Source: Streptomyces fuscigenes (GTDB lineage: Bacteria > Actinomycetota > Actinomycetes > Streptomycetales > Streptomycetaceae). From it: a stretch of DNA of 64,000 nt. Both the position numbers and the translations under genes were made by a program. Location: positions 1 to 64,000 of the forward strand of contig NZ_JAKGCV010000001.1 of NCBI RefSeq assembly GCF_021556455.1, given 5' to 3'. The notes beneath the pieces were generated by a model. The model searched no databases. It saw nothing but the letters and a program-made list of their open reading frames with translations, and was not told the DNA's origin. Shown one piece after another: positions 17,661 to 42,985 of this stretch; the stretch's first letter is position 1; each line of letters opens with the position of its first letter.

Positions 17661-18201
17661 GGCCATCACCACGCGGGCCACCAGGCCCTGGGCGAGGGCT
17701 TCCGCTCCCGGAGCCATGTGCGCCGGCAAGTGGCAGCGGGGAGCCGTGACCGTGGATAAGGGTGCGGCGGTACATCCGAAACAGTTTGCGGCGGACCAAC
17801 TCCAGTTTGGCGCGCTGTGGGACTCCCTCGCTGACCATCGGAACACCGCCTCCGTGGGCAGGAGGCACGGGCGTGGCGTGTAGGCCCTCCGAGTGAAGAA
17901 CGGGCACTTCGGTACCCGTAGACGGAGCGTTGGGCCAGCAGTCGGTGCCCCCGGGCGACAATGCACTCGGGTCTGCTGGTGAAGTGGCTGGCGGGAAGAC
18001 CCGGTAGAAGGCGTAGGACCTGGCATGAACCAGTTGCTGCGCGAACAGCTGATCGGTCACGGAAGCCGGCTCCTTCCACCGGGGAAGCTGCGGATCGCGG
18101 GGAGGCGGGCCGCGTCGGCCGGGGCCGGACGGCTCGTCGGATACCTGTCTGCTCGGCTCCCCTGGGCCGTGCTGCCGGAACAGTGAGCTGGTGAGGTGCG
18201 T
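17661..18201. other. No intact gene
   Basis: Both strands contain gene-like but broken stretches. An example on the minus strand is R-A-K-L-E-L-V-R-R-K-L-F-R-M-Y near 17800. No start, ribosome-binding site or recognisable family supports a gene. It is probably decayed DNA between the conjugation fragment and the SpoIIE-type regulator. Confidence 0.5.
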
Positions 18202-20310
18202 ATGGCCCCGAACCGCGGCGGTGGAGTCAGCGGCGAGGTCCGTGCGGCGCTGTTGGAGGTCCTGTTCACACAAGCGCCGGTCGCGTTGTTGATCGTGGAC
18301 ACGGAGCTGCGCGTCCGACGCGTCAACACCGCCTCCGACGGCATCCAGGGCTCCACCGCGGACGATCTGGTCGGTCGCCCCGTGGTAGAGGTCATCAACG
18401 CGATGGACACCGAGGACGTCGAGGACATGGCGCGCACCGTGTTGAGTACCGGTGCTCCGGTCCTCGATCGCCTCGTGTCCGGCCGTCCGACCGCCGAGCC
18501 CCACACCGAGCATGTCTACTCGCTCTCCGTGTTCCGCCTCCAAGAGAGCAACGGTGACGTACTCGGCGCCGTGTTCTCCGTGATCGACGTGACAGAACGC
18601 GAGCAAGAGCTGGCGCGCGGTGCTGTGCGCGATGCGGCTCGGAAGAAGATCGCCGATTCCCTGGACATGGTCACGATCTGCCGTGAACTCACGGAGGTGA
18701 CCGTACCGAACTTCGCGGACACGGCAATGGCGGATGTCTTGGACGCCGTGGTTCGAGGCGACGAACCTCCGCTCGGACCACTCCTCGGTGACGAGCCGAT
18801 GCGGCGCACGGCGTTCACGTCGTCCACCGGCCTGACGCAGGTTCATATGCTGGGTGAGACGGGCAGGTTTCCTTACCCCACGCCGTACACACAGAGCCTC
18901 AATGACCTCGAGCCCCGCCTGATCACTCTGGACGAGACCACATCATGGCTGGCCGCGGATCCGGAACGGGGACGTGCGCTGCGCGAGGCGGGTGTCCACG
19001 GCATGATCGTCGCCCCGCTCGTCGTGCGCGGAGCCGTGCTCGGCATCACCGCCTTCTACCGTTCCGCCCGAACCGCCCCCTTCACGGCAGACGACGTGGT
19101 TCTCGCGAGTGACCTGGCGGCGTTCACGGCCGTATGCCTGGACAACGCCCGCCGGTTCACACGGGAGCACACCGTCGCGCTCACCCTGCAACGCCGCCTT
19201 CTGCCCCAGGGCCATGCCCCCCAGGGGGCGGCCGAGGTCGTCCACTTCCACCGGCCCGCGGAGGCGAGCGGGGGTTGGTTCGACGCCATCCCGCTGTCCG
19301 GCGCCCGTCTCGCCCTGACCGTGGGCCACGTGGCCGGACGGGGTATCCATGCCGCCACCGCCATGGGACAGCTCCGCGCGGCGATCAACGCGCTCGCCGC
19401 ACTGGATCCGGAGCCCGACGAACTTCTCGCACGCCTCAACGACACAGTCATCCGCCTGGCGGCGGAACGGTCCGCTCTGCCGCCCGCCGACCCGATGCAC
19501 GCCGAACCGCTGACAGCCTCGTGCACATATGTGGTGTACGACCCGGCCACCGGTGACTGCGCCATCGCGTGCGCCGACCACCCCCCTCCGGTTCTCGTCC
19601 GGCCCGACGGCATCGACGAGAGCCCCGAGGTACCGCACGGCCCGCCCCTGGGCGGTGAACACGAGCCTTTCGCAGCCGCACGGACGCGGCTTCCCGCGGG
19701 CAGCGTTCTGGCGCTGTACAACGACGGCTTGTCGCGGGCATACGGCGACACCTCGCCCGGCACTGCCCGCGACCGCCTTCGCGAGGTGCTCTCCTGGCGC
19801 GACCGCACCCTGAAGGGACTGCGTGACGAGGCCGTGTACTCGGTCAAGAGCGTCCAGCGCCCCGAGGACGAGGCGGTTCTCCTGCTGGCCCGCACGCGGA
19901 TTCTCAACGAGGACCAGATCGCCACCTGGGACGTCCCCCCGGATCCCGGGGAGGTGGCCCGGGCCCGTGACCGCGCGGTGCGGCAACTGGAGGAGTGGGG
20001 CCTGACCGGCAACGCCCTCGCGACCGAACTCATCGTCAGCGAACTCGTGACGAACGCCATCCGTCACGGTGCGCCTCCGGTGCAACTGCGCCTCATCAGG
20101 GACCGGTTCCTGACCTGCGAGGTCTCGGACACCAGTCCCGCCGCGCCCCACCTCCGCCATGCCAGGACCCTGGACGAAAGCGGCCGTGGACTCTTCATCG
20201 TGGCCCAACTCGCGCAGCAGTGGGGCACCCGCTACACCGGTTCGGGCAAGACCATCTGGACCGAGCAGTCCCTCTCTCCGGGACAGGCGGCCCCGGACCA
20301 GTTGCCGTGA
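18202..20310 (+). CDS. PAS-GAF-SpoIIE-HATPase regulator
   Basis: A 702-residue multidomain signalling protein. It has PAS (about 20-120), GAF (140-320), a SpoIIE/PP2C-like phosphatase domain (335-560) and a C-terminal anti-sigma-type ATPase (580-690; N box E-L-I-V-S-E-L-V-T-N-A and G-R-G-L-F-I-V). Such proteins both phosphorylate and dephosphorylate STAS partners. In the phosphatase domain two metal-binding Asp are replaced (S-G-G-W-F-D for G-G-D-W-Y-D; G-H-V-A-G-R-G for G-D-V-x-G-x-G), while Y-N-D-G-L and E-D-E-A remain. Activity may be weak or lost. ATG 18202 follows GGTGAGG. Confidence 0.9.
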   Translation: MAPNRGGGVSGEVRAALLEVLFTQAPVALLIVDTELRVRRVNTASDGIQGSTADDLVGRPVVEVINAMDTEDVEDMARTVLSTGAPVLDRLVSGRPTAEPHTEHVYSLSVFRLQESNGDVLGAVFSVIDVTEREQELARGAVRDAARKKIADSLDMVTICRELTEVTVPNFADTAMADVLDAVVRGDEPPLGPLLGDEPMRRTAFTSSTGLTQVHMLGETGRFPYPTPYTQSLNDLEPRLITLDETTSWLAADPERGRALREAGVHGMIVAPLVVRGAVLGITAFYRSARTAPFTADDVVLASDLAAFTAVCLDNARRFTREHTVALTLQRRLLPQGHAPQGAAEVVHFHRPAEASGGWFDAIPLSGARLALTVGHVAGRGIHAATAMGQLRAAINALAALDPEPDELLARLNDTVIRLAAERSALPPADPMHAEPLTASCTYVVYDPATGDCAIACADHPPPVLVRPDGIDESPEVPHGPPLGGEHEPFAAARTRLPAGSVLALYNDGLSRAYGDTSPGTARDRLREVLSWRDRTLKGLRDEAVYSVKSVQRPEDEAVLLLARTRILNEDQIATWDVPPDPGEVARARDRAVRQLEEWGLTGNALATELIVSELVTNAIRHGAPPVQLRLIRDRFLTCEVSDTSPAAPHLRHARTLDESGRGLFIVAQLAQQWGTRYTGSGKTIWTEQSLSPGQAAPDQLP

Positions 20311-27663: not shown

Positions 27664-29553
<1,890 letters not shown>

Positions 29554-29563
29554 GGGGTTGACC

Positions 29564-30169
29564 ATGGCGAACGACTCCTGGGAACCCGACCGGTCGCCGG
29601 AGGACGCCCTTGAGACCGAGCCTGAGGACACGCCGCACTCGGACCCGGTGTCCTCAGCAGGCGACGGCACGGACCCGGCGCCGGCGCCGGCGCCGGCGCC
29701 CGAGGCAGCCGGAGGCCCCGAGTCCGACGGTGCCGCGTACACGGCCGAACTCCAAGAACTCGAGGACCGCTGGCGGCATGCGCTCGCGGACCTCGACAAC
29801 CTGCGCAAGCGCCACGCCAGGGAGCTGGAGAGGGAGCGGACGGCCGAGCGTTCCCGTACGGCCGCCGCCTTCCTGCCCGTGCTGGACAACCTCGAACTCG
29901 CGCTGGCACACTCCGGCCCCGCCCCGGACGCGGTCGTGGAGGGCGTCCGGGCGGTACGCGACCAGGCCGTGAACATCCTCGACCTGCTCGGCTACCCCAG
30001 GCACGCCGAGACCGGAGTCGTCTTCGATCCGGCCCGGCACGAGGCGGTCGCCGTGGTCCAGGACCCCGACGCGGAACCGGGGACGGTCGTCGAGGTGCTG
30101 CGCCCAGGTTACGGGGACGGGGAACGACAGCTCAGGCCGGCCACCGTGACCGTCGCGAAGGGGGACTGA
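29564..30169 (+). CDS. grpE: GrpE nucleotide exchange factor
   Basis: A 201-residue GrpE that releases ADP from DnaK. It has an acidic, disordered N terminus with an (A-P)n run near residues 38-46. A long coiled coil follows (E-L-Q-E-L-E-D-R-W-R-H-A-L-A-D-L-D-N-L-R), then the beta domain (D-P-A-R-H-E-A-V-A-V-V and L-R-P-G-Y). It starts ten bases after dnaK, with GAGGGG before the ATG. Confidence 0.95.
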   Translation: MANDSWEPDRSPEDALETEPEDTPHSDPVSSAGDGTDPAPAPAPAPEAAGGPESDGAAYTAELQELEDRWRHALADLDNLRKRHARELERERTAERSRTAAAFLPVLDNLELALAHSGPAPDAVVEGVRAVRDQAVNILDLLGYPRHAETGVVFDPARHEAVAVVQDPDAEPGTVVEVLRPGYGDGERQLRPATVTVAKGD

Positions 30170-30175
30170 CCGGTC

Positions 30176-31129
30176 ATGGCACGGGACTTCTACGAGGTGC
30201 TGGGCGTGCCCCGGGGCGCGAGCCAGGACGAGATCCAGCAGGCATATCGCAAGCTCGCCCGCAGGCACCACCCCGACGTCAACAAGGACCCCGGGGCGGA
30301 GGAGATCTTCAAGGACCTCAACGAGGCGTACAGCGTCCTGTCGGATCCGAAGACCCGCGCCCGGTACGACCGCTTCGGCGAGGACTTCCGCAAAATTCCC
30401 GAAGACTTCGACGAGCGGGTCGCGGCCGGAGCAGGCGGCGCCCACCGCACCCGCGGGACCTCGGGCGCCGGTGCACAAGGGGTCCGGTACTCGACCGGCT
30501 TCGGCGACGACTTCGCGGCGCAGGGCGTCGACATCGAAGACCTCCTGGGCTCGATCTTCGGGGCGGGTGCCGCCTCCGCCGGCGTCCCGGGAGCCGACCA
30601 AGAGGCCGAGCTGACCCTCACCGTCGAGGAGGCGTACAGGGGCGGCCGTCGCACCGTGACGCTCGCAGGCCCCACGGGACAGCCGCGGCGCTACGAGGTC
30701 GACGTGCCACGCGGTGTCGTCGACGGGCAGCGCATCCGGCTGTCGGGCGAGGGAGGCCGGGGCAGCGGCGACGCCGTCGCCGGCGACCTGTACCTGAGGG
30801 TCCGTGTCCGGCCGCACCCCGAGTTCCGGCTGGACGGCCGGAACGTGCATGTCCAGATACCCGTCGCCGCCTGGGAGGCGGCCCTGGGCGCCACCGTACC
30901 GGTCCGCACTCCCGGCGGTGACACGGCCAAGGTCACGGTTCCCGCGGGCTCGTCCACCGGCCGACGCCTGCGGTTGCGGGGCGAGGGCATGCCCAATCCG
31001 CGAGGCGCTGACGGCGACCTGTACGCGGAACTGCGGGTCGTGGTACCGCCCACCCTCAGTGACCGTGAGCGCGAACTGTTCGAAGAGCTCGCGGCCGTCT
31101 CCTCGTTCGACCCCAGGAGGACTCGATGA
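30176..31129 (+). CDS. J-domain co-chaperone without zinc finger (CbpA type)
   Basis: A 317-residue DnaJ-family protein. The J domain at residues 1-70 (D-F-Y-E-V-L-G-V, H-P-D in R-R-H-H-P-D-V-N) stimulates DnaK ATPase. A Gly-rich linker and two C-terminal substrate-binding domains follow (G-Q-R-I-R-L-S-G-E-G-G, L-R-L-R-G-E-G-M-P). The four-motif Cys zinc finger of DnaJ is absent, so this is a type II (CbpA-like) co-chaperone. It starts six bases after grpE and overlaps the next gene (ATGA), which looks like its modulator. Confidence 0.92.
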   Translation: MARDFYEVLGVPRGASQDEIQQAYRKLARRHHPDVNKDPGAEEIFKDLNEAYSVLSDPKTRARYDRFGEDFRKIPEDFDERVAAGAGGAHRTRGTSGAGAQGVRYSTGFGDDFAAQGVDIEDLLGSIFGAGAASAGVPGADQEAELTLTVEEAYRGGRRTVTLAGPTGQPRRYEVDVPRGVVDGQRIRLSGEGGRGSGDAVAGDLYLRVRVRPHPEFRLDGRNVHVQIPVAAWEAALGATVPVRTPGGDTAKVTVPAGSSTGRRLRLRGEGMPNPRGADGDLYAELRVVVPPTLSDRERELFEELAAVSSFDPRRTR

Positions 31130-31500
31130 ACGACCGACCCTCGGGAGCAGGGGGCAGGGGCCTCACCGGCACCGCCCCCACGACAGCCCTGCGGTACGCG
31201 CCGGTCCCCACCACCAGGCTCTCCCTCGGTGATGTGGCCCGCCGTTCGGGCCTCCACCCCGATCTGATCCGCAGGTTCGTCGCCCTCGGCCTGGTCGAGG
31301 CCGAGCGTGACGCCGCGGGACGCCTCGTCTTCGACCGCACGGCGCCCGCCGCTCTCGCGCGCATCCAGCGGCTGCGAACCGGCCTGTGCCTCAACTACGC
31401 ATCCATCGGTCTGGTGCTCGACCTGCTCGACCGCATCAGCCTGCTCGAAGCCGCCCTGCGCGGCCGCGGCACGAGGAGTGAATCGCCCCCATGGACATGA
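31126..31500 (+). CDS. CbpM/MerR-like chaperone modulator
   Basis: A 124-residue protein. A winged helix at about 30-70 ([19 protein letters not shown]) is followed by a helical segment ([16 protein letters not shown]). This resembles CbpM, which binds the J domain of CbpA, and more distantly HspR repressors. It may modulate its J-protein partner, act as operon repressor, or both; sequence alone cannot decide. The ATG overlaps the dnaJ stop by four bases and its end overlaps clpB. Confidence 0.75.
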
Positions 31501-34130
31501 ACCGTCTCACCCAGAAGTCACAGGACGCCCTCCAGGAGGCACAGACCGCGGCCGTCCGTGCGGGCCAGACCGAGGTCGACGGGGAGCACCTGCTGCTCGC
31601 TCTTGTCGACCAGGAGGACGGTCTGGTCCCGCGGCTGCTGCAAGAGGCCGGGGCCCGGCCGGACGAACTGCGCACGACGCTGAGCGAGGAGGTCTCCCGG
31701 CGCCCGAAGGTCACCGGTCCCGGCGCCACCCCCGGCCAGGTCTTCGTCACCCAGCGCCTCACCCGCCTGCTCGACGCCGCAGACGACGAGGCCAAACGCC
31801 TCAAAGACGAGTACGTGTCAGTGGAGCACCTCGTGCTCGCCCTGCTCGACGAGGGCTCCTCGACCGTCGCCGGGCGCCTTCTCAAGCAGGCCGGCGTCAC
31901 CAAGGACTCCTTCCTCGGCGCGCTCACACAGGTCCGCGGCAACCAACGCGTCACATCGGCCAATCCCGAAGTGGCCTACGAGGCGCTGGAGAAGTACGGC
32001 CGCGATCTCGTCACCGAGGCCAGGAGCGGCCGGCTCGACCCCGTCATCGGGCGAGACGCCGAAATCCGGCGCGTCACCCAGATCCTCAGCCGCAAATCCA
32101 AGAACAACCCGGTTCTGATCGGCGATCCCGGCGTCGGCAAGACCGCCATCGTCGAGGGCCTCGCACAGCGCATCGTCCGCGGCGACGTCCCCGAAGGACT
32201 CCGCGACAAGACGGTCTTCGCCCTCGACATGGGCTCCCTGGTCGCCGGCGCGAAATACCGGGGTGAGTTCGAGGAACGCCTCAAGGCCGTGCTGAGCGAG
32301 GTCAAGGCAGCCCAGGGGCGCATCCTCCTCTTCGTCGACGAACTGCACACCGTCGTCGGCGCGGGCGCCGCCGAAGGAGCCATGGACGCCGGCAACATGC
32401 TCAAGCCGATGCTGGCCCGCGGCGAACTCCACATGGTCGGCGCCACCACCCTCGACGAGTACCGCAAGCACATCGAGAAGGACGCGGCCCTCGAACGCCG
32501 CTTCCAGCAGGTCCTGGTCGACGAGCCCAGCGTGGAGGACACCATCTCCATCCTCCGCGGACTGCGCGAACGCCTGGAAGTCTTCCACGGCGTGAAAATC
32601 CAGGACACCGCGCTGGTGTCGGCAGCCACCCTCAGCCACCGCTACATCACCGATCGTTTCCTGCCCGACAAGGCCATCGACCTCGTCGACGAGGCATGCG
32701 CACGGCTGCGGACCGAGATCGACTCGATGCCCGCCGAACTGGACGAGATCACGCGCCGCGTCACCCGTCTGGAGATCGAGGAGGCCGCCCTCTCCAAGGA
32801 GACGGACCCCGCCAGCGGCACCCGCCTTGAGGAGCTGCACAGGGAACTCGCCGACCTGCGGGGCGAGGCCGACGCGAAACGCGCCCAGTGGGAGGCCGAG
32901 CGGCAGGCGATCCGGCGTGTGCAGGAACTGCGCCAGGAGCTGGAACAGGTCCGCCACGAGGCGGAAGAGGCCGAACGCGCCTACGACCTCAACCGTGCCG
33001 CGGAGCTCCGCTACGGACGCCTCCAGGACATGGAACGCCGACTCGCCGCGGCGGAGGAGCAACTGACTTCCAAGCAGGGCCAGGACCGGTTGCTGCGCGA
33101 AGTCGTCACTGAGGAGGAGATCGCCGACATCGTCGCCACCTGGACCGGCATTCCCGTCGCCCGCCTGACGGAGGGCGAGCGCGACAAACTGCTGCGCCTC
33201 GACGAGATCCTGCGCGAACGCGTCATCGGCCAGGACGAGGCCGTCAAGCTCGTCGCCGACGCCATCATCCGAGCCCGCTCCGGCATCCGCGACCCGCGCC
33301 GCCCCATCGGATCCTTCATCTTCCTCGGCCCCACCGGCGTCGGTAAGACCGAGTTGGCCAAAACGCTCGCCCGCGCTCTGTTCGACACCGAGGACAACAT
33401 GGTGCGCCTCGACATGAGCGAGTACCAGGAGCGGCACACCGTCAGCCGGCTCATGGGCGCACCGCCCGGATACGTCGGCTACGAGGAGGGCGGCCAGCTC
33501 ACCGAGGCGGTACGCCGCAAGCCGTACTCCGTCGTACTGTTCGACGAGATCGAGAAGGCGCACACCGACGTGTTCAACACCCTGCTGCAGATCCTCGACG
33601 ACGGCCGCATCACGGACGCCCAGGGCCGCACCGTCGACTTCCGCAACACGGTGATCATCATGACGTCCAACATCGGCTCCGAGCACCTCCTCGACGGCGC
33701 CACCGCCGAGGGCGAGATCAAGCCGGACGCCCGCGCCCTGGTCATGGGCGAACTGCGCGGGCACTTCCGCCCGGAATTCCTCAACCGCGTCGACGACATC
33801 GTGTTGTTCAAGCCGCTCGGTGAACAGCAGATCGAGCGGATCGTGGAGCTGCAGTTCGACGAGCTGCGTCAGCGGGTCGCCGAGCGCCGCATCGCCGTCG
33901 AACTCAGCGACGCGGCACGTGAGGTGATCGCCCATCAGGGCTACGACCCGGTCTACGGGGCCCGGCCGCTGCGGCGCTACATCTCCCACGAGGTCGAGAC
34001 ACTCGTCGGACGGGCGCTGCTGCGCGGGGACGTTCAAGACGGCGCGACGGTACGCGTCGACGCCGTGCACGGAGAACTGCTGGTCACCTACGACCAGCCG
34101 GCGGGAGACCGGGAAGCGGCGACAGCGTGA
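31491..34130 (+). CDS. clpB: AAA+ disaggregase ClpB
   Basis: An 879-residue Hsp100 that pulls proteins out of aggregates together with DnaK. It has the N domain with two repeats (residues 1-150), AAA-1 with Walker A G-D-P-G-V-G-K-T at about 210 and a coiled-coil middle domain at about 400-520. AAA-2 follows with Walker A G-P-T-G-V-G-K-T at about 613, and then the C-terminal D2-small domain. No ClpP-binding I/L-G-F loop is evident, fitting ClpB rather than ClpC/A. ATG 31491 and 31497 are both possible; GAGGAG lies upstream. Being in the same operon as dnaK gives fixed stoichiometry. Confidence 0.95.
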
Positions 34131-34585
34131 ACACCATCCGGACCACAACGGTCACCTGCCCGAACTGCGGGCGCGGCAACAGGGTTCCCGTGGCCGCGGA
34201 GGGCAGCCCCCGGTGCGGTCACTGCCGGCAGCCCCTGCCGTGGATCGTCGACGCGGGCGACTACGACTTCCTGGACATCGCCGACAACGCCACCACGCCC
34301 GTCGTGGTCGACCTCTGGGCCACGTGGTGCGGCCCATGCCGCGCGGTGAGCCCTGCCCTCGAACAGGTCGCACGGGACCTCGCGGGACGGATCAAGCTGG
34401 TCAAGGTCGACATCGACCGCAACCCGCTGCTCAGCCGCCGCTTTGAGGTGCAGGCGGTGCCGACTCTGCTCGTCCTGGACCGGGGCGAGCCGATCGCGCG
34501 GCAGGCCGGGGCCGCACCCACGCACACCCTGCGCTCGTGGATCGAGCACGCGATGGCGGCCCGGGACACGTCCGCAGGAGGGTGA
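34127..34585 (+). CDS. Thioredoxin with N-terminal zinc ribbon (thioredoxin-2 type)
   Basis: A 152-residue disulfide reductase. Residues Cys11, Cys14, Cys30 and Cys33 form two C-x-x-C pairs of a zinc ribbon as in E. coli Trx2. The thioredoxin fold follows, with active site W-A-T-W-C-G-P-C (Cys68, Cys71) and the cis-Pro loop (A-V-P-T-L). Trx2 proteins resist oxidation and can act as redox-regulated helpers. The GTG start overlaps the clpB stop (GTGA), so it is tied to clpB expression. Confidence 0.93.
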
Positions 34586-34589
34586 ACAG

Positions 34590-34754
34590 ATGGTCCGGCT
34601 ACGTATCGATTTCCCTGCCGCAGGTGGTCGGCACACGGGTTCGATGAAGGGCCACCGCACATCTGGGCGCCGCGCCGCGGTCGGCACACCACGGCCGGCG
34701 GCCACGTCGAAGGCCAAGGGGCACAGCCCCGTACGCAAGGAGGGTCCCGCATGA
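34590..34754 (+). CDS. Small basic protein, unknown
   Basis: A 54-residue ORF with good translation signals: AGGAGGG nine bases before the ATG, a four-base gap after trx and an ATGA overlap with the next gene. The first part (M-V-R-L-R-I-D-F-P-A-A-G-G-R) may form a beta strand. The rest is rich in Arg, Lys, Gly, Ser and Pro and probably disordered. It could be a real peptide or a translated leader coupling the next gene. Confidence 0.5.
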   Translation: MVRLRIDFPAAGGRHTGSMKGHRTSGRRAAVGTPRPAATSKAKGHSPVRKEGPA

Positions 34755-35014
34755 CGACGATTCCCGACCCGCACCTGGCCATGGTGCACCCGGTCACGCC
34801 GCGTACCCCCGAGGGCTGCGAGGAGTGCCTCAAGGAGCACTCCCCCTGGGTGCACCTGCGGCTCTGCCTCACGTGTGGGCACGTGGGCTGCTGCGACTCC
34901 TCTCCCCGCAAACACGCCAGGCGCCACGCGGGCACCGTCGGCCACCCCGTCGTGCAGTCGTTCGAACCGGGAGAGGAATGGCGCTGGTGCTACGTTCACG
35001 AGGCTCCGGTCTGA
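34751..35014 (+). CDS. UBP-type zinc finger protein
   Basis: An 87-residue protein that is one zf-UBP domain. Zinc ligands are C-E-E-C, C-L-T-C-G-H-V-G-C-C-D, K-H-A-R-R-H-A and a final H-P-V-V-Q-S-F. In eukaryotes this domain binds the C-terminal Gly-Gly of ubiquitin; bacterial stand-alone copies have no known ligand but are common beside thioredoxin-reductase-like genes in actinobacteria. It overlaps both neighbours (ATGA before, TGATG after). Confidence 0.88.
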   Translation: MTTIPDPHLAMVHPVTPRTPEGCEECLKEHSPWVHLRLCLTCGHVGCCDSSPRKHARRHAGTVGHPVVQSFEPGEEWRWCYVHEAPV

Positions 35015-36795
35015 TGGGCGGGCCCGCGCACGAGCAGGCGCCGGTCCCCACGCCCCCTGAACGGCTTGGGGAGTTTCCGCGCCTGCCGCCGGAGCGACTC
35101 GATGAGCTGACAGAGCTCGGCGAGCGTCGCAGGACCACCGAGGGGGAGGTGCTGTACTGCGAGGGCGAGCCTTCCCGGGAGTTCCTCGCGATCCTCACGG
35201 GGACCGTCGAGGTCGTCCACGACCGAGGTGGGCCCGACGAACTCACGCTGGGAGTACAGGGGCCCGGCGAATTCCTGGGGGAACTCGGACTGCTGGAGGG
35301 ACAGGCTGCCTTCGAAACGGCCGTCGTGCGCCGGGCGGGAGAGATCGTGGCGGTGCCGGTCGAGCGGCAGCGCGCCCTGGTCGGGCGCGACTCCGCGCTC
35401 GGTGACCTGATCCTCCGCGCCTACGTGGCCCGCCGGTATCTGCTCATCGGCCTCGGCGCCGGCTTCCGCATCCTGGGCTCGTGTTATTCGCCTGACACAC
35501 TGCGCCTCCGTGCGTTCGCGGCCCGCAACCGCCTCCCCCATCGGTGGGTGGATCTGGAGCAGGACAGGGAAGCCGAGGCACTGCTGCGCAGGTTCTCCAT
35601 CCGTCCCGAAGAGACCCCGGTGGTCGTCTGGAAGGGCGAACGGGTGCTGCGCAACCCGAGCAACGCCGAACTCGCGCGGCTCATCGGGCTGCCGGCCAAC
35701 CCGCCGGACGCGGGCCAGTGCGACGTGCTCGTGGTCGGCGCGGGCCCCGCAGGGCTTGCCGCCGCCGTGTACGGAGCCTCCGACGGCCTCACCACCGTCA
35801 GTGCCGACGCCGAGGCCACCGGAGGCCAGGCAGCCACCTCCTCCCGCATCGAGAACTACCTCGGCTTCCCATCGGGCGTCTCCGGGGGCGAACTGGTCGA
35901 ACGCGCAGTGCTCCAGGCCCGCAAATTCGGTGCACGCCTGCTGATACCGGCTCAGGTCAACGGTCTGACGCCGCAGGACGGCGCGTACGACGTCGCCTTT
36001 GCGGACGGGTCGCGGATACGGGCGGGCGCCGTGGTCCTCGCCTCGGGTGTGCGGTACCGCAGGCTGGACGTTCCCGGCATCGACCGCCTTGAAGGCACCA
36101 GCGTCTACTACGCGGCGACGGTCCACGAGGCCAGTCTCTGCCGGGCGGGCCCTGTTGCCGTGGTCGGCGGCGGGAACTCCGCCGGGCAGGCGGCACTGTT
36201 CCTCGCGGGCCACGCGTCCACGGTGCACCTCCTCGTCCGGAGCGACGACCTCGGCGCGAACATGTCCCGCTACCTCGTGGACCGGGTGGAGCGGCATCCG
36301 AGGATCGAGACACGGCTCAACGCCGAGGTCCGGGGCGTGTCCGGGGAGGAGGCGATGGAGTCCCTGACGGTCGAGGACACGGCAAGTGGTAACCGTCTTG
36401 AACTGCAGGCGGCGGCATTGTTCGTCTTCATCGGGGCCCGGCCGCGCACGGAATGGCTCCGGGGCGCGGTGGCACTTGACGACAAGGGATTCGTCCTCAC
36501 CGGAGCCGACGCCTGGGCCTCCGCCGACACGGCCCGGTGGTCCCCCCTCGGCCGCGAGCCGTATCTGCTGGAAACCACCCTTCCCGGTGTCTTCGCAGCC
36601 GGGGACATCAGGAGCGGCTCGGTCAAACGGGTGGCTTCGGCGACCGGCGAAGGCGCCATGGCTATCAGCTTTCTGCACGAGCACCGGGAACAGAACGGCC
36701 ATCTCGTCCACTCCGCGAGCGCGGAGGGGCGACCACAGGCGGGGGACCGTCCGCGCCCTGGCACTGGCCCTCCGCCGACGGACCACGCACGGTGA
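35014..36795 (+). CDS. cNMP-binding / glutaredoxin-like / thioredoxin-reductase-like FAD oxidoreductase
   Basis: A 593-residue fusion. Residues about 15-135 are a Crp-type cyclic-nucleotide-binding fold (F-L-A-I-L-T-G-T-V-E-V, G-E-F-L-G-E-L-G-L-L). About 145-225 form a thioredoxin/glutaredoxin-like region, and 230-560 a thioredoxin-reductase fold. The latter has FAD motif V-V-G-A-G-P-A-G, NAD(P)H motif V-V-G-G-G-N-S-A-G and terminal A-G-D-I. The usual active-site C-x-x-C of the reductase is missing (Y-Y-A-A-T-V-H-E-A-S). It therefore is not a classical TrxR; the electron acceptor is unknown. ATG overlaps the zf-UBP stop. Confidence 0.9.
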   Translation: MGGPAHEQAPVPTPPERLGEFPRLPPERLDELTELGERRRTTEGEVLYCEGEPSREFLAILTGTVEVVHDRGGPDELTLGVQGPGEFLGELGLLEGQAAFETAVVRRAGEIVAVPVERQRALVGRDSALGDLILRAYVARRYLLIGLGAGFRILGSCYSPDTLRLRAFAARNRLPHRWVDLEQDREAEALLRRFSIRPEETPVVVWKGERVLRNPSNAELARLIGLPANPPDAGQCDVLVVGAGPAGLAAAVYGASDGLTTVSADAEATGGQAATSSRIENYLGFPSGVSGGELVERAVLQARKFGARLLIPAQVNGLTPQDGAYDVAFADGSRIRAGAVVLASGVRYRRLDVPGIDRLEGTSVYYAATVHEASLCRAGPVAVVGGGNSAGQAALFLAGHASTVHLLVRSDDLGANMSRYLVDRVERHPRIETRLNAEVRGVSGEEAMESLTVEDTASGNRLELQAAALFVFIGARPRTEWLRGAVALDDKGFVLTGADAWASADTARWSPLGREPYLLETTLPGVFAAGDIRSGSVKRVASATGEGAMAISFLHEHREQNGHLVHSASAEGRPQAGDRPRPGTGPPPTDHAR

Positions 36796-37928: not shown

Positions 37929-38378
37929 TCACAGCAGGAGGTCGAAGACGGCTCGAGCGTCATCCCAGTGCTGGGTCCGCGGGTTCTTCAGGTCAGGGTG
38001 AATGATCTTGAAGCTCCGAGCGAGAGCCAGGCTGAGTCCCCCGATGATCTCCGGATAGGCCGCCTCGGTCTCCTCGTCGGGTGCCCGGTCCAGGGCCGGT
38101 CGGGCGGCGAGCTGTTCCAGAATGGGCCCGAGTTCCAGCTCCTGGTCGATCTCCCGGAAACGGTGAATGCTCTCCTGCAGGCCTTTCGTGATCGGCAGGT
38201 CGGAGATCCGGACGATGTCGCGGCCGTTTGCCTTGGCAGTGGCCTGGGCAATGGTCAGCAGGTCGTAGAGCTTCGCGTCGACGAAGTCGCTGTAGCGTTT
38301 GAGATCGTTCTTGTCGACGTCCAGCCCCGCGGCCGTGCGGAAGAATTTCTCGAACCTGGCGATGGACATCACTGGCAT
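37929..38378 (-). CDS. DUF1931 histone-fold protein
   Basis: A 149-residue protein made of two fused histone folds, the family's usual size (M-S-I-A-R-F-E-K-F-F-R-T-A-A-G-L-D-V, then L-K-R-Y-S-D-F-V-D). Related bacterial proteins have a histone-like structure, but DNA binding is unproven. ATG 38378 has AGGAGG eight bases upstream. It lies alone, near other stress-type genes, so a role in stressed or stationary cells is likely but not shown. Confidence 0.88.
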   Translation of the reverse strand: MPVMSIARFEKFFRTAAGLDVDKNDLKRYSDFVDAKLYDLLTIAQATAKANGRDIVRISDLPITKGLQESIHRFREIDQELELGPILEQLAARPALDRAPDEETEAAYPEIIGGLSLALARSFKIIHPDLKNPRTQHWDDARAVFDLLL

Positions 38379-40516: not shown

Positions 40517-42985
40517 TCAGGGGCGCGCGAGCCGGGCCGCGAGGTAGGGCGCGGTGGCGCTGCGGCGAACCCTCGCCACCTCGGCCGGCGGGCCCGCCGC
40601 GACCACCTGCCCACCCGCGTCGCCGCCGCCCGGCCCGAGGTCGATGACCCAGTCGGCGGTGGCGACCGTGTCGAGGTCGTGCTCGACGAGGACCACTGTG
40701 TTGCCGGCGTCGACGAGCCGGTGGAGTTGTCGCAGCAGCAGTGCGATGTCCGAGGGGTGCAGCCCCGCCGTCGGCTCGTCGAGCAAGTAGAGCGCGTGCC
40801 CGCGGCGGGCCCGCTGCAGTTCGGTGGCCAGTTTGATGCGTTGCGCCTCACCACCGCTCAGTTCTGTCGCAGGCTGCCCGAGGCGCAAGTACCCGAGTCC
40901 CACCTCGCGCAGCGTCTCCAGACTGCGGGAGGCGGCCGGGACGGCGGCAAGGAACGCGGCGGCCGCGTCGACGGACAGCTCCAGCACCTCGGCGATGTTC
41001 TTGCCGCGGTGGGTGACCTCCAGGGTCTCGGGGTTGTACCGGGCGCCGTGGCAGGTCGGGCAAGGAGCGTAGGTACCGGGCAGGAACAGCAGCTCCACCG
41101 CGACGAACCCTTCGCCCTGGCAAGTCTCGCACCGGCCCTCGGGCACATTGAAGGAGAACCGCCCGGCCGAGTAGCCACGCTTCCTGGCCTCGTCCGTCCC
41201 TGCGTACAGCTTGCGCACCGCGTCGAACATCCCCGTGTACGTCGCCAGGTTGGACCGCGGAGTTCGCCCGATGGGCCGTTGGTCGACCCGGACCAGCCGA
41301 TCGAACGACTCGACCCCGGAGGCGCCTTGGACGTCGACCTCCAGCCGTGCCTCGTCGGGCTCCTCGGCTTCGAGTCCGAGGTGGCCGCGGACGACCTCGG
41401 CGAGCACCTGCGTCACCAGCGTCGATTTTCCGGAGCCGGACACGCCCGTCACCGCCGTCAGTACGCACAGCGGTACGTCGACGGACACGTCGCGCAGATT
41501 GTGACGGGAGACGCCGCCCAGGCGCAGCCGGCCCTGCGGCGTACGCGGTCGGCGGTCGAGCGGCCGGGCGCGCCCGAACAGGTGCTCGCTCGTGGCCGAC
41601 TCCCCGACCCGCTCCAGACCGGCGACCGGACCGCTGTACAGCACGCGTCCGCCCGCCTCACCCGCGCCGGGGCCGATGTCGACCACCCAGTCGGCCCGCC
41701 GCACGACGTCCATGTCGTGCTCCACGACGAACAGCGAGTTGCCCGCCGCCTTGAGTCGGTCCAGCACGTCCAGCAGGGGCTCCGCGTCGGCCGGGTGCAG
41801 GCCCGCGGAGGGTTCGTCGAGAACGTAGACGACGCCGAACAGCCCCGAGCGCAACTGGGCGGCGACCCGAAGGCGCTGCGCCTCACCGGGCGACAGGGTC
41901 GTCGAGCGGCGCCCGAGGCTGAGATACCCGAGACCCAGGTCCAGCAGCACGGTGATCCGCGCCACCAGATCGCCGCAGATCCGGACCGCGACCTCGGTCG
42001 TCTCCCCGGACCGGGCGGTCGACGTGGTGGCGTCGGCCTCCGCCCGCCCCGCGACGGGCCGCAGTACGGCAACGACCTCGGTGAGCGGCATCGCGTTGAT
42101 CTCGGCGATGGAACGTCCGGCGAAGGTCACGGCGAGCGCCTCGGGCCGCAGCCCGCTGCCGTGGCACACGGGGCAGGGCACGCTCCTGACGAACCGGAGC
42201 GCCCGTTCGCGCATCTTCTCGCTCTTGGAGTCGGCGAGGACGTGCATGACGTGCTTGCGGGCACTCCAGAATGTGCCCTGGTAGCCGTAGTCGACGCGGT
42301 CCTCCTCCGGCTCGACGTACACGGAGGGTTGCTCGTCCGTGTACAGCAGCCAGTCCCGGTCCCTCTTCCTGAGCCTGCGCCACGGCCGGTCGATGTCGAT
42401 GCCCAGACCGCTGACGACACTGCGCAGGTTGGCGCCCTGCCAGGCGCCCGGCCAGGCGGCGATGGCCCCCTCGCGGATGCTCAGCGAGGGATCCGGGACG
42501 AGCAGGTCCTCGGCGACGTCGTGCACGACGCCCAGTTCATGGCACTCCGGGCAGGCGCCGGCCGGCGTGTTGGGTGAGAACGCCTCCGCCTCCAGCCGCG
42601 CGGCCCGGGGCGGATAGGTGCCGGCGCGGGAGTACAGGATGCGCAGCAGATTGGACAGCGTGGTGATGGTGCCGACCGACGAGCGCGAGCTGGGCGACCC
42701 GCGGCGCTGCTGCAGGGCCACGGCCGGCGGCAGTCCGGTGATCTCCTGCACGTGCGGCGCCCCGACCTGTTGCAGCAGCCTGCGCGCGTACGGCGCCACG
42801 GATTCGAAGTAGCGCCGCTGGGCCTCTGCGTAGAGGGTCCCGAACGCCAGAGAGGACTTGCCCGAACCGGAGACACCGGTGAAGGCGACCATCGCATTTC
42901 GCGGAACGTCGAGATCGACGTCCCGCAGGTTGTTCTCACTGGCGCCCCGGACATGCACGAAGGGGTCGGACGCGTCCTTAACCAC
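40517..42985 (-). CDS. UvrA-family ABC ATPase (UvrA2/DrrC-like)
   Basis: An 822-residue paralogue of UvrA, shorter than housekeeping UvrA (about 950). Two ABC modules are complete: Walker A G-V-S-G-S-G-K-S-S and G-V-S-G-S-G-K-S-T, signature motifs L-S-P-G-E-A-Q-R and L-S-G-G-E-A-Q-R, and zinc-binding Cys modules (C-P-E-C-H, C-P-V-C-H, C-E-T-C, C-P-T-C-H). The UvrB-binding domain seems reduced. Such proteins occur with resistance or drug-production loci. The start is taken at ATG 42985. Confidence 0.9.
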   Translation of the reverse strand: MVKDASDPFVHVRGASENNLRDVDLDVPRNAMVAFTGVSGSGKSSLAFGTLYAEAQRRYFESVAPYARRLLQQVGAPHVQEITGLPPAVALQQRRGSPSSRSSVGTITTLSNLLRILYSRAGTYPPRAARLEAEAFSPNTPAGACPECHELGVVHDVAEDLLVPDPSLSIREGAIAAWPGAWQGANLRSVVSGLGIDIDRPWRRLRKRDRDWLLYTDEQPSVYVEPEEDRVDYGYQGTFWSARKHVMHVLADSKSEKMRERALRFVRSVPCPVCHGSGLRPEALAVTFAGRSIAEINAMPLTEVVAVLRPVAGRAEADATTSTARSGETTEVAVRICGDLVARITVLLDLGLGYLSLGRRSTTLSPGEAQRLRVAAQLRSGLFGVVYVLDEPSAGLHPADAEPLLDVLDRLKAAGNSLFVVEHDMDVVRRADWVVDIGPGAGEAGGRVLYSGPVAGLERVGESATSEHLFGRARPLDRRPRTPQGRLRLGGVSRHNLRDVSVDVPLCVLTAVTGVSGSGKSTLVTQVLAEVVRGHLGLEAEEPDEARLEVDVQGASGVESFDRLVRVDQRPIGRTPRSNLATYTGMFDAVRKLYAGTDEARKRGYSAGRFSFNVPEGRCETCQGEGFVAVELLFLPGTYAPCPTCHGARYNPETLEVTHRGKNIAEVLELSVDAAAAFLAAVPAASRSLETLREVGLGYLRLGQPATELSGGEAQRIKLATELQRARRGHALYLLDEPTAGLHPSDIALLLRQLHRLVDAGNTVVLVEHDLDTVATADWVIDLGPGGGDAGGQVVAAGPPAEVARVRRSATAPYLAARLARP

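Follow-up and report, generated by a model that had tools for sequence, protein, structure and literature searches.

A sensor-fused flavoprotein of Streptomyces fuscigenes with a thioredoxin reductase-like core devoid of redox cysteines, and its putative function

Loss of the redox cysteines in P0001 and its relatives

The stretch of 64,000 nucleotides of Streptomyces fuscigenes DNA analysed here (contig NZ_JAKGCV010000001.1, positions 1 to 64,000), referred to as the window, carries at 35014–36795 of the forward strand a gene coding for a protein of 593 amino acids, P0001. According to the translation of the open reading frame (ORF) and to domain and family searches, it comprises a cyclic nucleotide-binding (CNB) domain, a glutaredoxin-like domain, and a flavoprotein core of the thioredoxin reductase (TrxR) type, the last two devoid of their redox cysteines. 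P0001 may be an NAD(P)H flavoprotein that works independently of thiols, is gated by a signal, and has a zf-UBP protein as its partner, the thiol relay having been lost and a sensor placed in front; a probability of about 0.45 is assigned to this reading. Its elements that are read from the sequences themselves are the loss of the thiols, the single origin of this loss, the cofactor motifs, the exchange of the sensor, the proximity of zf-UBP genes, and the CNB-histidine kinase neighbouring the forms with a response-regulator receiver (REC) domain. The residues rule out that thioredoxin is reduced through the customary dithiol mechanism.

The CRP-like CNB domain occupies residues from about 20 to 145 (35071–35448, +) and was recognised by Pfam as cNMP_binding at residues 39–123 (E 1e-13), with a PF00027 score of 51.5 bits against a cut-off of 27.5, in agreement with the Crp-like sensor proposed in the initial annotation of this DNA. 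The core, located at residues 235–560 (35716–36693, +) on the basis of Pfam, PDB, and structural matches, corresponds to Pyr_redox_2 (residues 237–547, E 2.2e-32); its best sequence matches in the PDB are thioredoxin reductases, and the glycine motifs of both the FAD and the NAD(P)H sites are present, as the annotation had also stated. The redox motif C-A-T-C is replaced by A367-A-T-V370 (36112–36123, +), and this substitution, likewise noticed before, is upheld by an alignment running without gaps over the CATC of four-cysteine relatives. The closest relative from a named species is that of S. roseus (77% identical).

The region between the sensor and the core (residues from about 150 to 230; 35461–35703, +) gives no match in Pfam. 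Predicted alone (nine sequences; pLDDT 83, pTM 0.72), it has the topology beta-alpha-beta-alpha-beta-beta-alpha, and its closest structural match is the thioredoxin-like 3zit (Z 11.8, root-mean-square deviation (rmsd) 1.6, 77 residues aligned), followed by glutaredoxins including NrdH redoxins (Z 10–12) and Mrx1 (Z 9.4). With Foldseek the top E-values were merely about 1e-3, the first match being a yeast actin-interacting protein. The equivalent region of a four-cysteine relative is recognised as Pfam Glutaredoxin (E 1.5e-10). The prediction of the isolated domain and its structural matches substantiate the glutaredoxin-like region that the annotation had placed in front of the core; the structural-match (VIA) list for the full-length model covers mainly residues 230–564, and the CNB and glutaredoxin folds were judged apart from it. 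The loss of the glutaredoxin cysteine pair was absent from the annotation: in the alignment S159-P-D-T162 (35488–35499, +) stands in place of the C-P-D-C of the four-cysteine relatives, and neither a CPxC nor a CPxS active site is present. Pro202, at the cis-Pro position, is kept in P0001 and altogether in 53 of the 54 CNB forms.

Residues were counted in one alignment of 112 rows, comprising 54 CNB forms (P0001 included), 26 REC forms, two other CNB forms, 13 four-cysteine forms, 16 plain TrxRs, and one uncounted row; the sensor-fused set amounts to 82 proteins, with P0001 among them. Some rows are near-copies, and the counts are not independent events, relatedness being dealt with by the tree. 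The plain TrxR rows were taken as the top matches of a four-cysteine protein and are not a random draw. Four loci were dropped (L009, which ends at a contig edge, L116, the same gene as L105, and the partial L126 and L128), and L072, with no sensor recognised and a match starting from residue 153, was excluded from the class counts. L010–L039 were replaced by later, longer loci without every gene being fetched again, and homologues seen only among them (e.g., L016, L023, L036, and L039) stand outside the 112-row counts; they are contained in an earlier alignment, whose displayed columns reveal no CxxC in them.

Both cysteines of CATC are present in all 29 four-cysteine and TrxR rows and in none of the 82 sensor-fused proteins, and since both are missing throughout the latter set, the absence of the motif is not a matter of chance. 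The first glutaredoxin cysteine is found in 13/13 four-cysteine forms versus 0/82 sensor-fused proteins, and the second in 12/13 versus 6/82. The residue following CATC, which is the acid in E. coli TrxR, is Asp in 28 of the 29 cysteine-bearing rows (Glu in one) and in none of the 82. The view of the annotation that P0001 is not a normal thioredoxin reducer agrees with this complete absence of the CATC cysteines and of the following Asp, as well as with the presence in the same genome of a separate TrxR with CATC, scoring above the family cut-off. P0001 was rejected as the organism's own thioredoxin reductase, a normal one being encoded in that genome. A cysteine pair located elsewhere, a possibility raised in the annotation, was sought across the alignment columns and none was found; the sole frequent new cysteine, C376 (36139–36141, +), is a single one and not invariant, being present in 64/82 proteins (48/54 CNB and 16/26 REC forms), replaced by another residue in the other 18, and absent from all 29 CATC-bearing relatives.

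Position 539, which we take to lie within the flavin-contacting C-terminal segment of TrxR, is occupied by Gln in the 29 CATC-bearing rows and by Arg (R539 in P0001; 36628–36630, +) in 82/82 sensor-fused proteins, which suggests that the flavin site has been retuned, not decayed. Further positions switched in the sensor-fused rows are 256 and 393 (79/82 each) and 276 (78/82), with an insertion of Met at 417. The cofactor residues D237, G242, G244, G270, G271, N281, G345, G385, G530, and D531 are conserved in both sets. At the nucleotide-selecting site, the HRR of TrxR or the Glu of most four-cysteine forms (9/13) has given way to V-R-G or similar in the sensor-fused forms.

Searches with P0001, with the window's genome counted in both sets, gave matches in 69/296 genomes of the phylum (E up to 1e-60) and in 174/295 genomes of the same genus (E up to 1e-50), not all of them inspected. 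In seven of the 69 (G007, G073, G095, G117, G160, G224, and G245) the match is the four-cysteine form, the rest having been partly inspected. Many matches span residues 150–560 only, the N-terminal domain of these proteins being REC and not CNB. The data from across phyla come from plasmid records and one genome-contig scan, and the rows from other phyla are few: nine CNB-type plasmid loci (L044, L045, L106–L108, L110, L111, L113, and L115), one Chloroflexia metagenome-assembled genome (L008), the REC-type L109 of Deinococcus, L112, and L114. WCPDC in the glutaredoxin domain is combined with CATC in the core in two distant relatives, L105 and L114, and a search with the former revealed more such four-cysteine glutaredoxin–TrxR fusions (L105/L116, L117–L125, L127, L129, and L114 in all), found in actinobacterial genomes and in Emticicia. 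The glutaredoxin-like domain is present twice in tandem in L114 and L129, and L125 carries a monothiol CPDS site.

In a quick tree of 84 rows the sensor-fused clade obtained an SH-aLRT support of 100. A careful tree of 82 rows, rooted with TrxR, from which the eleven diagnostic columns were removed and L078 and L107 left out (over-long segments after trimming), gave a support of 100/100 to the sensor-fused clade (54 rows) and to its union with the four-cysteine group, and 94/87 to the latter group alone. Since the sensor-fused proteins form a single clade, the simplest account is one loss of the core dithiol, on the stem on which the sensors appear. L079 and L112, both with Pfam cNMP_binding, are nested within the REC side of the first tree, and in the second one REC needs two changes. 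The position of these two CNB forms suggests that the sensor has been exchanged more than once on the same core, L079/L112 being probably a second swap.

The ratios of nonsynonymous to synonymous substitutions between P0001 and six relatives, all on its own branch and not independent, are 0.25–0.39 for the CNB domain, 0.09–0.12 for the glutaredoxin-like domain, and 0.27–0.32 for the core. P0001 is under purifying selection in all three domains and is not decaying. The glutaredoxin-like domain is the slowest also in L042/43/66, L059/61, and L040/50/51, and in just 2/6 pairs of L055/57/58/60 and 0/7 REC pairs, so that the strongest constraint can be assigned to this domain on the P0001 branch and is not claimed for the clade in general.

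Sensor domains and gene neighbourhood

The Arg of the phosphate-binding cassette of cyclic nucleotide-binding domains contacts the phosphate of the ligand. In the CNB-type proteins Gly89 and Glu90 of the cassette are kept in 53/54 each, and the canonical Arg, replaced by Ala99 in P0001, is found in a single one of the 54 (L076). An Arg one position earlier occurs in eight rows, L076 among them, and L079 and L112 likewise have no canonical Arg. Cyclic nucleotides are unlikely ligands of this lineage, given the almost complete lack of the canonical Arg; a different ligand is possible. The control by cyclic nucleotides envisaged in the annotation is not upheld, although the Gly-Glu pair survives: of the ligand-binding residues whose loss was at issue, the Arg is gone almost throughout and Gly-Glu is not. 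The CNB-kinases beside the REC forms L096, L097, and L100 have cassettes of the PR.A/S type, as read from their pattern.

At REC loci, the gene following that of the flavoprotein codes for a CNB-histidine kinase in 21 of 26 cases, and one of the remaining five loci ends at a contig edge. Pfam confirmed CNB and HATPase in three such kinases. In L100, the ORF downstream of the REC-type flavoprotein codes for a histidine kinase of 555 amino acids that has an N-terminal CNB and a C-terminal zf-UBP domain. The phosphorylatable Asp of REC is present in 24/26 proteins and the Lys in 26/26, and the two exceptions in Asp, L101 and L104, are both among the loci without a kinase. The combination of CNB, zf-UBP, and the dead relay is thus a recurrent one, with two different layouts.

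In the window, the start codon of the P0001 gene overlaps the stop codon of a gene for a zf-UBP protein of 87 amino acids, P0002 (34751–35014, +), which is preceded by a thioredoxin gene on the same strand. Domain searches and locus surveys make zf-UBP a recurrent neighbour. In 22 genomes, chosen mainly for holding CNB forms and related to each other, zf-UBP gave 58 matches in all, or roughly one in 3.4 Mb, and 17 of the 22 CNB-type genes listed for them, by positions read by hand, have zf-UBP within 120 bases (the five that do not are those of G420, G318, G547, G353, and one of two in G455). Among loci with flanks of at least 2 kb, it lies within that distance in 28/49 CNB, 7/24 REC, and 0/2 of L079 and L112, six short-flank loci (L004, L008, L068, L071, L089, and L095) having been dropped from this count; tblastn over the whole fetched stretches gave slightly different numbers, 29/46 CNB and 8/24 REC loci. 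The same zf-UBP/flavoprotein pair of neighbours occurs on two Rhizobium plasmids, while five other annotated proteobacterial plasmid stretches list no zf-UBP. The link to zf-UBP proposed in the annotation stands as one of position, seen in the 17 close pairs and in the partner kinase that itself carries zf-UBP. The closest solved relative of P0002 is 2ida, a hypothetical protein. The Arg of the CGR motif of zf-UBP is involved in binding of the ubiquitin tail, and the idea that these proteins bind ubiquitin-like tails in the same way is doubtful, as in the alignment to HDAC6 and USP16 they have S or D at the position of this Arg.

Upstream of these genes, on the same strand, lie those for DnaK (27664–29553, with a start picked by eye), a GrpE-type protein (ORF at 29513–30169, the true start being probably somewhat downstream), a DnaJ/CbpA-type co-chaperone (30176–31129), a MerR-type, CbpM-like chaperone modulator (31126–31500), a ClpB-type disaggregase of the same operon (31491–34130), and the thioredoxin P0003 (34127–34585), with WCGPC intact and a score above the cut-off of TIGR01068 and below that of the TrxC model. 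DnaK, GrpE, and ClpB were identified from the sequence, and the annotated dnaK, grpE, cbpM, and clpB of the plasmid counterparts agree with the respective assignments. The order dnaK–grpE–dnaJ–cbpM–clpB–trx–(zf-UBP)–P0001 is kept on two Streptomyces plasmids, one of them without an annotated zf-UBP, and on one Rhodococcus and one Nocardia plasmid. In the best reading, the flavoprotein is paired also with this operon in many of the actinobacteria sampled. In the fetched stretches ClpB is located upstream in 24/46 CNB loci versus 0/24 REC loci; therefore, the chaperone link is seen on the CNB side only, and the pairing of sensor and flavoprotein, often with zf-UBP, is wider than this link. For S. 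avermitilis, a dnaK2–grpE2–dnaJ2 operon and two trxB genes are described, clpB not being mentioned in the passages concerned (PMC5402319).

A DUF1931 protein is encoded on the opposite strand at 37929–38378 (−) and is a neighbour of the island in 11/46 CNB loci; on the Rhodococcus and Nocardia plasmids seen, its gene directly follows that of the flavoprotein. Farther away, the window codes for a UvrA-like protein of 822 amino acids with the UvrA DNA-binding domain (40517–42985, −), the usual UvrA being longer, and for a protein (18196–20310, +) in which PAS and GAF domains are combined with a SpoIIE phosphatase and a kinase-like ATPase domain, as is typical of stress signalling. An ORF of more than 3100 codons with a high third-position GC content runs to the end of the window (54507–64001, +).

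Proposed function and alternatives

The ancestor of P0001 would have been a four-cysteine glutaredoxin–TrxR fusion. On the stem of the clade the core dithiol was presumably lost (CATC to AATx), the glutaredoxin site was nearly stripped as well (CPDC to SPDT, WSPxS, and similar), the FAD and NAD(P) sites were retained, and a signalling domain, REC or CNB, was put in front. In the protein so formed NAD(P)H would still reduce FAD, and, similarly to the CxxC-less TrxR-like ferredoxin/flavodoxin reductases (FNRs), electrons would exit directly from the flavin to a non-thiol acceptor (oxygen, a quinone, or a partner protein). The N-terminal domain, acting via the dead glutaredoxin domain, may gate this exit, with the zf-UBP protein as a docking or acceptor partner, and in the window the module belongs to the dnaK–grpE–dnaJ–cbpM–clpB–trx stress operon. 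More tentatively, the thiol-stripped relay could be a new signalling output, having been converted into the effector of a sensory module of CNB and zf-UBP that comes either in one piece, with CNB fused to the flavoprotein and zf-UBP adjoining, or as a two-component system, in which a CNB-histidine kinase (with zf-UBP in one case) would phosphorylate the REC-flavoprotein; its output would be the redox state of the flavin or a thiol-free electron transfer, not transcription.

Several observations weigh against a signal-gated, thiol-independent flavoprotein paired with zf-UBP. The full-length model of P0001 is weak (pLDDT 68, pTM 0.55), the segments expected at FAD falling below 50. The second NAD(P) motif is GxAxxA in 21/26 REC and 8/54 CNB forms, P0001 not among them, and this variant may weaken nucleotide binding. 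Moreover, among the loci with sufficient flanks, 21/49 CNB and 17/24 REC loci lack a zf-UBP gene within 2 kb, so that this neighbour is not obligatory.

The loss of the relay in concert with retention of the cofactor motifs, the signalling domains in front, the kinase and zf-UBP neighbours, and the strongly constrained evolution of the cysteine-less glutaredoxin domain in the comparison of P0001 with six relatives would also fit a non-catalytic redox or nucleotide sensor, whose core binds FAD and NAD(P)H without turnover and whose state shifts the dead glutaredoxin domain towards zf-UBP, the kinase, or chaperones. This explanation is less probable, as ongoing flavin chemistry is suggested by the preservation of both cofactor motifs and by Arg instead of Gln at position 539 throughout, and Pfam reveals no DNA-binding or other output domain in P0001. 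An accessory role in the chaperone system, with the cysteine-less glutaredoxin domain as a docking or holdase surface for DnaK or ClpB and redox activity secondary, draws on the operon shared with dnaK–grpE–dnaJ–cbpM–clpB in the window, on the Streptomyces, Rhodococcus, and Nocardia plasmids, and at related loci. It is improbable: ClpB is missing from the fetched stretch of all 24 REC and of 22/46 CNB loci, so the core function is probably independent of the chaperone link.

Two alternatives that retain disulfide chemistry or its regulation are very unlikely. The annotation proposed a cyclic-nucleotide-gated reductase of the operon's thioredoxin or of zf-UBP, which accords with the clear CNB fold, the cassette Gly-Glu in 53/54 proteins, the eight CNB forms with an Arg one position off, and the thioredoxin and zf-UBP genes immediately upstream, and is contradicted by the near-absence of the canonical Arg (1/54) and the absence of the CATC cysteines (0/82). 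A disulfide reductase employing another thiol, mainly C376, has in its favour the frequency of this residue in the CNB and REC forms and its absence from the CATC-bearing relatives, and to its detriment the other residues found there in 18 of the 82 proteins, the lack of a widespread second cysteine, and a score of P0001 against the YpdA/Bdr family of 57 bits at a cut-off of about 340. Finally, the disappearance of all core catalytic thiols might mark a pseudo-enzyme decaying with little consequence, a notion made most improbable of all by the single old loss, the wide spread, and the purifying selection.

Relation to known systems

Close plasmid relatives of P0001 are named in databases "cyclic nucleotide-binding domain-containing thioredoxin-disulfide reductase" (e.g., one 72% identical) or "FAD-dependent oxidoreductase". 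As far as the residues tell, the former name is misleading in both halves, there being no canonical cNMP-binding Arg and no redox disulfide. No study of the CNB- or REC-fused family was found among the matches inspected in a search of open-access literature, subscription papers lying outside its scope. What appears to be new here is the concerted single loss of both active sites, the exchange of the sensor along with CNB-kinase wiring, and the linkages to zf-UBP and chaperones. The family is common, as shown by the 174 matched genomes of the genus, and its deposited plasmid copies lack the residues that the name thioredoxin-disulfide reductase calls for. The clade constitutes a natural experiment, the core thiols having disappeared a single time as sensors were added, and it makes the role of a TrxR fold without dithiols testable. 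In addition, it provides a bacterial zf-UBP family with a candidate partner and draws attention to a mobile island of chaperone genes in actinobacteria.

P0001 shares the core fold and the FAD and NAD(P) motifs with the low-Mr thioredoxin reductases (TIGR01292), from which it differs in the lack of CxxC and the following Asp, in the additional CNB and glutaredoxin-like domains, and in its score (215.3 bits versus a cut-off of 343.45). As in AhpF, a thioredoxin-fold domain precedes the TrxR-like core. AhpF is the top Foldseek match of the full-length model (447 columns), with a low TM-score of 0.30 and an rmsd of 22.7, and a structural match with Z 27.2 over 302 residues (rmsd 14.8), confined to the range of the core. 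Nevertheless, P0001 scores 161.2 bits against a TIGR03140 cut-off of 502.9, has a cysteine pair in neither part, and gains a sensor domain; of the N-terminal CxxC domain of AhpF it has the fold and not the cysteines (S159/T162). AhpF has two N-terminal thioredoxin folds, P0001 one. The nearest group outside the sensor-fused clade is that of the four-cysteine fusions, with the same order of glutaredoxin domain and core and an identity to P0001 of 36–38% in actinobacterial members (e.g., L105/L116) and 30% in L114 of Emticicia; in these WCPDC (or close variants) and CATC/CASC are intact, and no sensor domain was found.

The TrxR-like FNRs are described, in the relevant passages, as members of the TrxR fold without CxxC, and such cores can be active (PMC10294844). 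P0001 has in common with them, and with YpdA/Bdr (TIGR04018), the TrxR fold without CxxC; from YpdA/Bdr it is separated by its score (57 versus a cut-off of 339.9 bits). Neither the TrxR-like FNRs nor YpdA/Bdr are known to possess a sensor or glutaredoxin-like domain.

The accessory operon at 27664–36795, with its counterparts on plasmids, is an actinobacterial analogue of the stress-tolerance islands. tLST, the locus of heat resistance, is likewise described as a mobile accessory island in which chaperone genes are accompanied by one for thioredoxin (PMC8290217). The two differ in composition: tLST comprises ClpG/ClpK, sHsp20, FtsH, and KefB, whereas the island of the window consists of DnaK, GrpE, DnaJ, CbpM, ClpB, thioredoxin, and zf-UBP.

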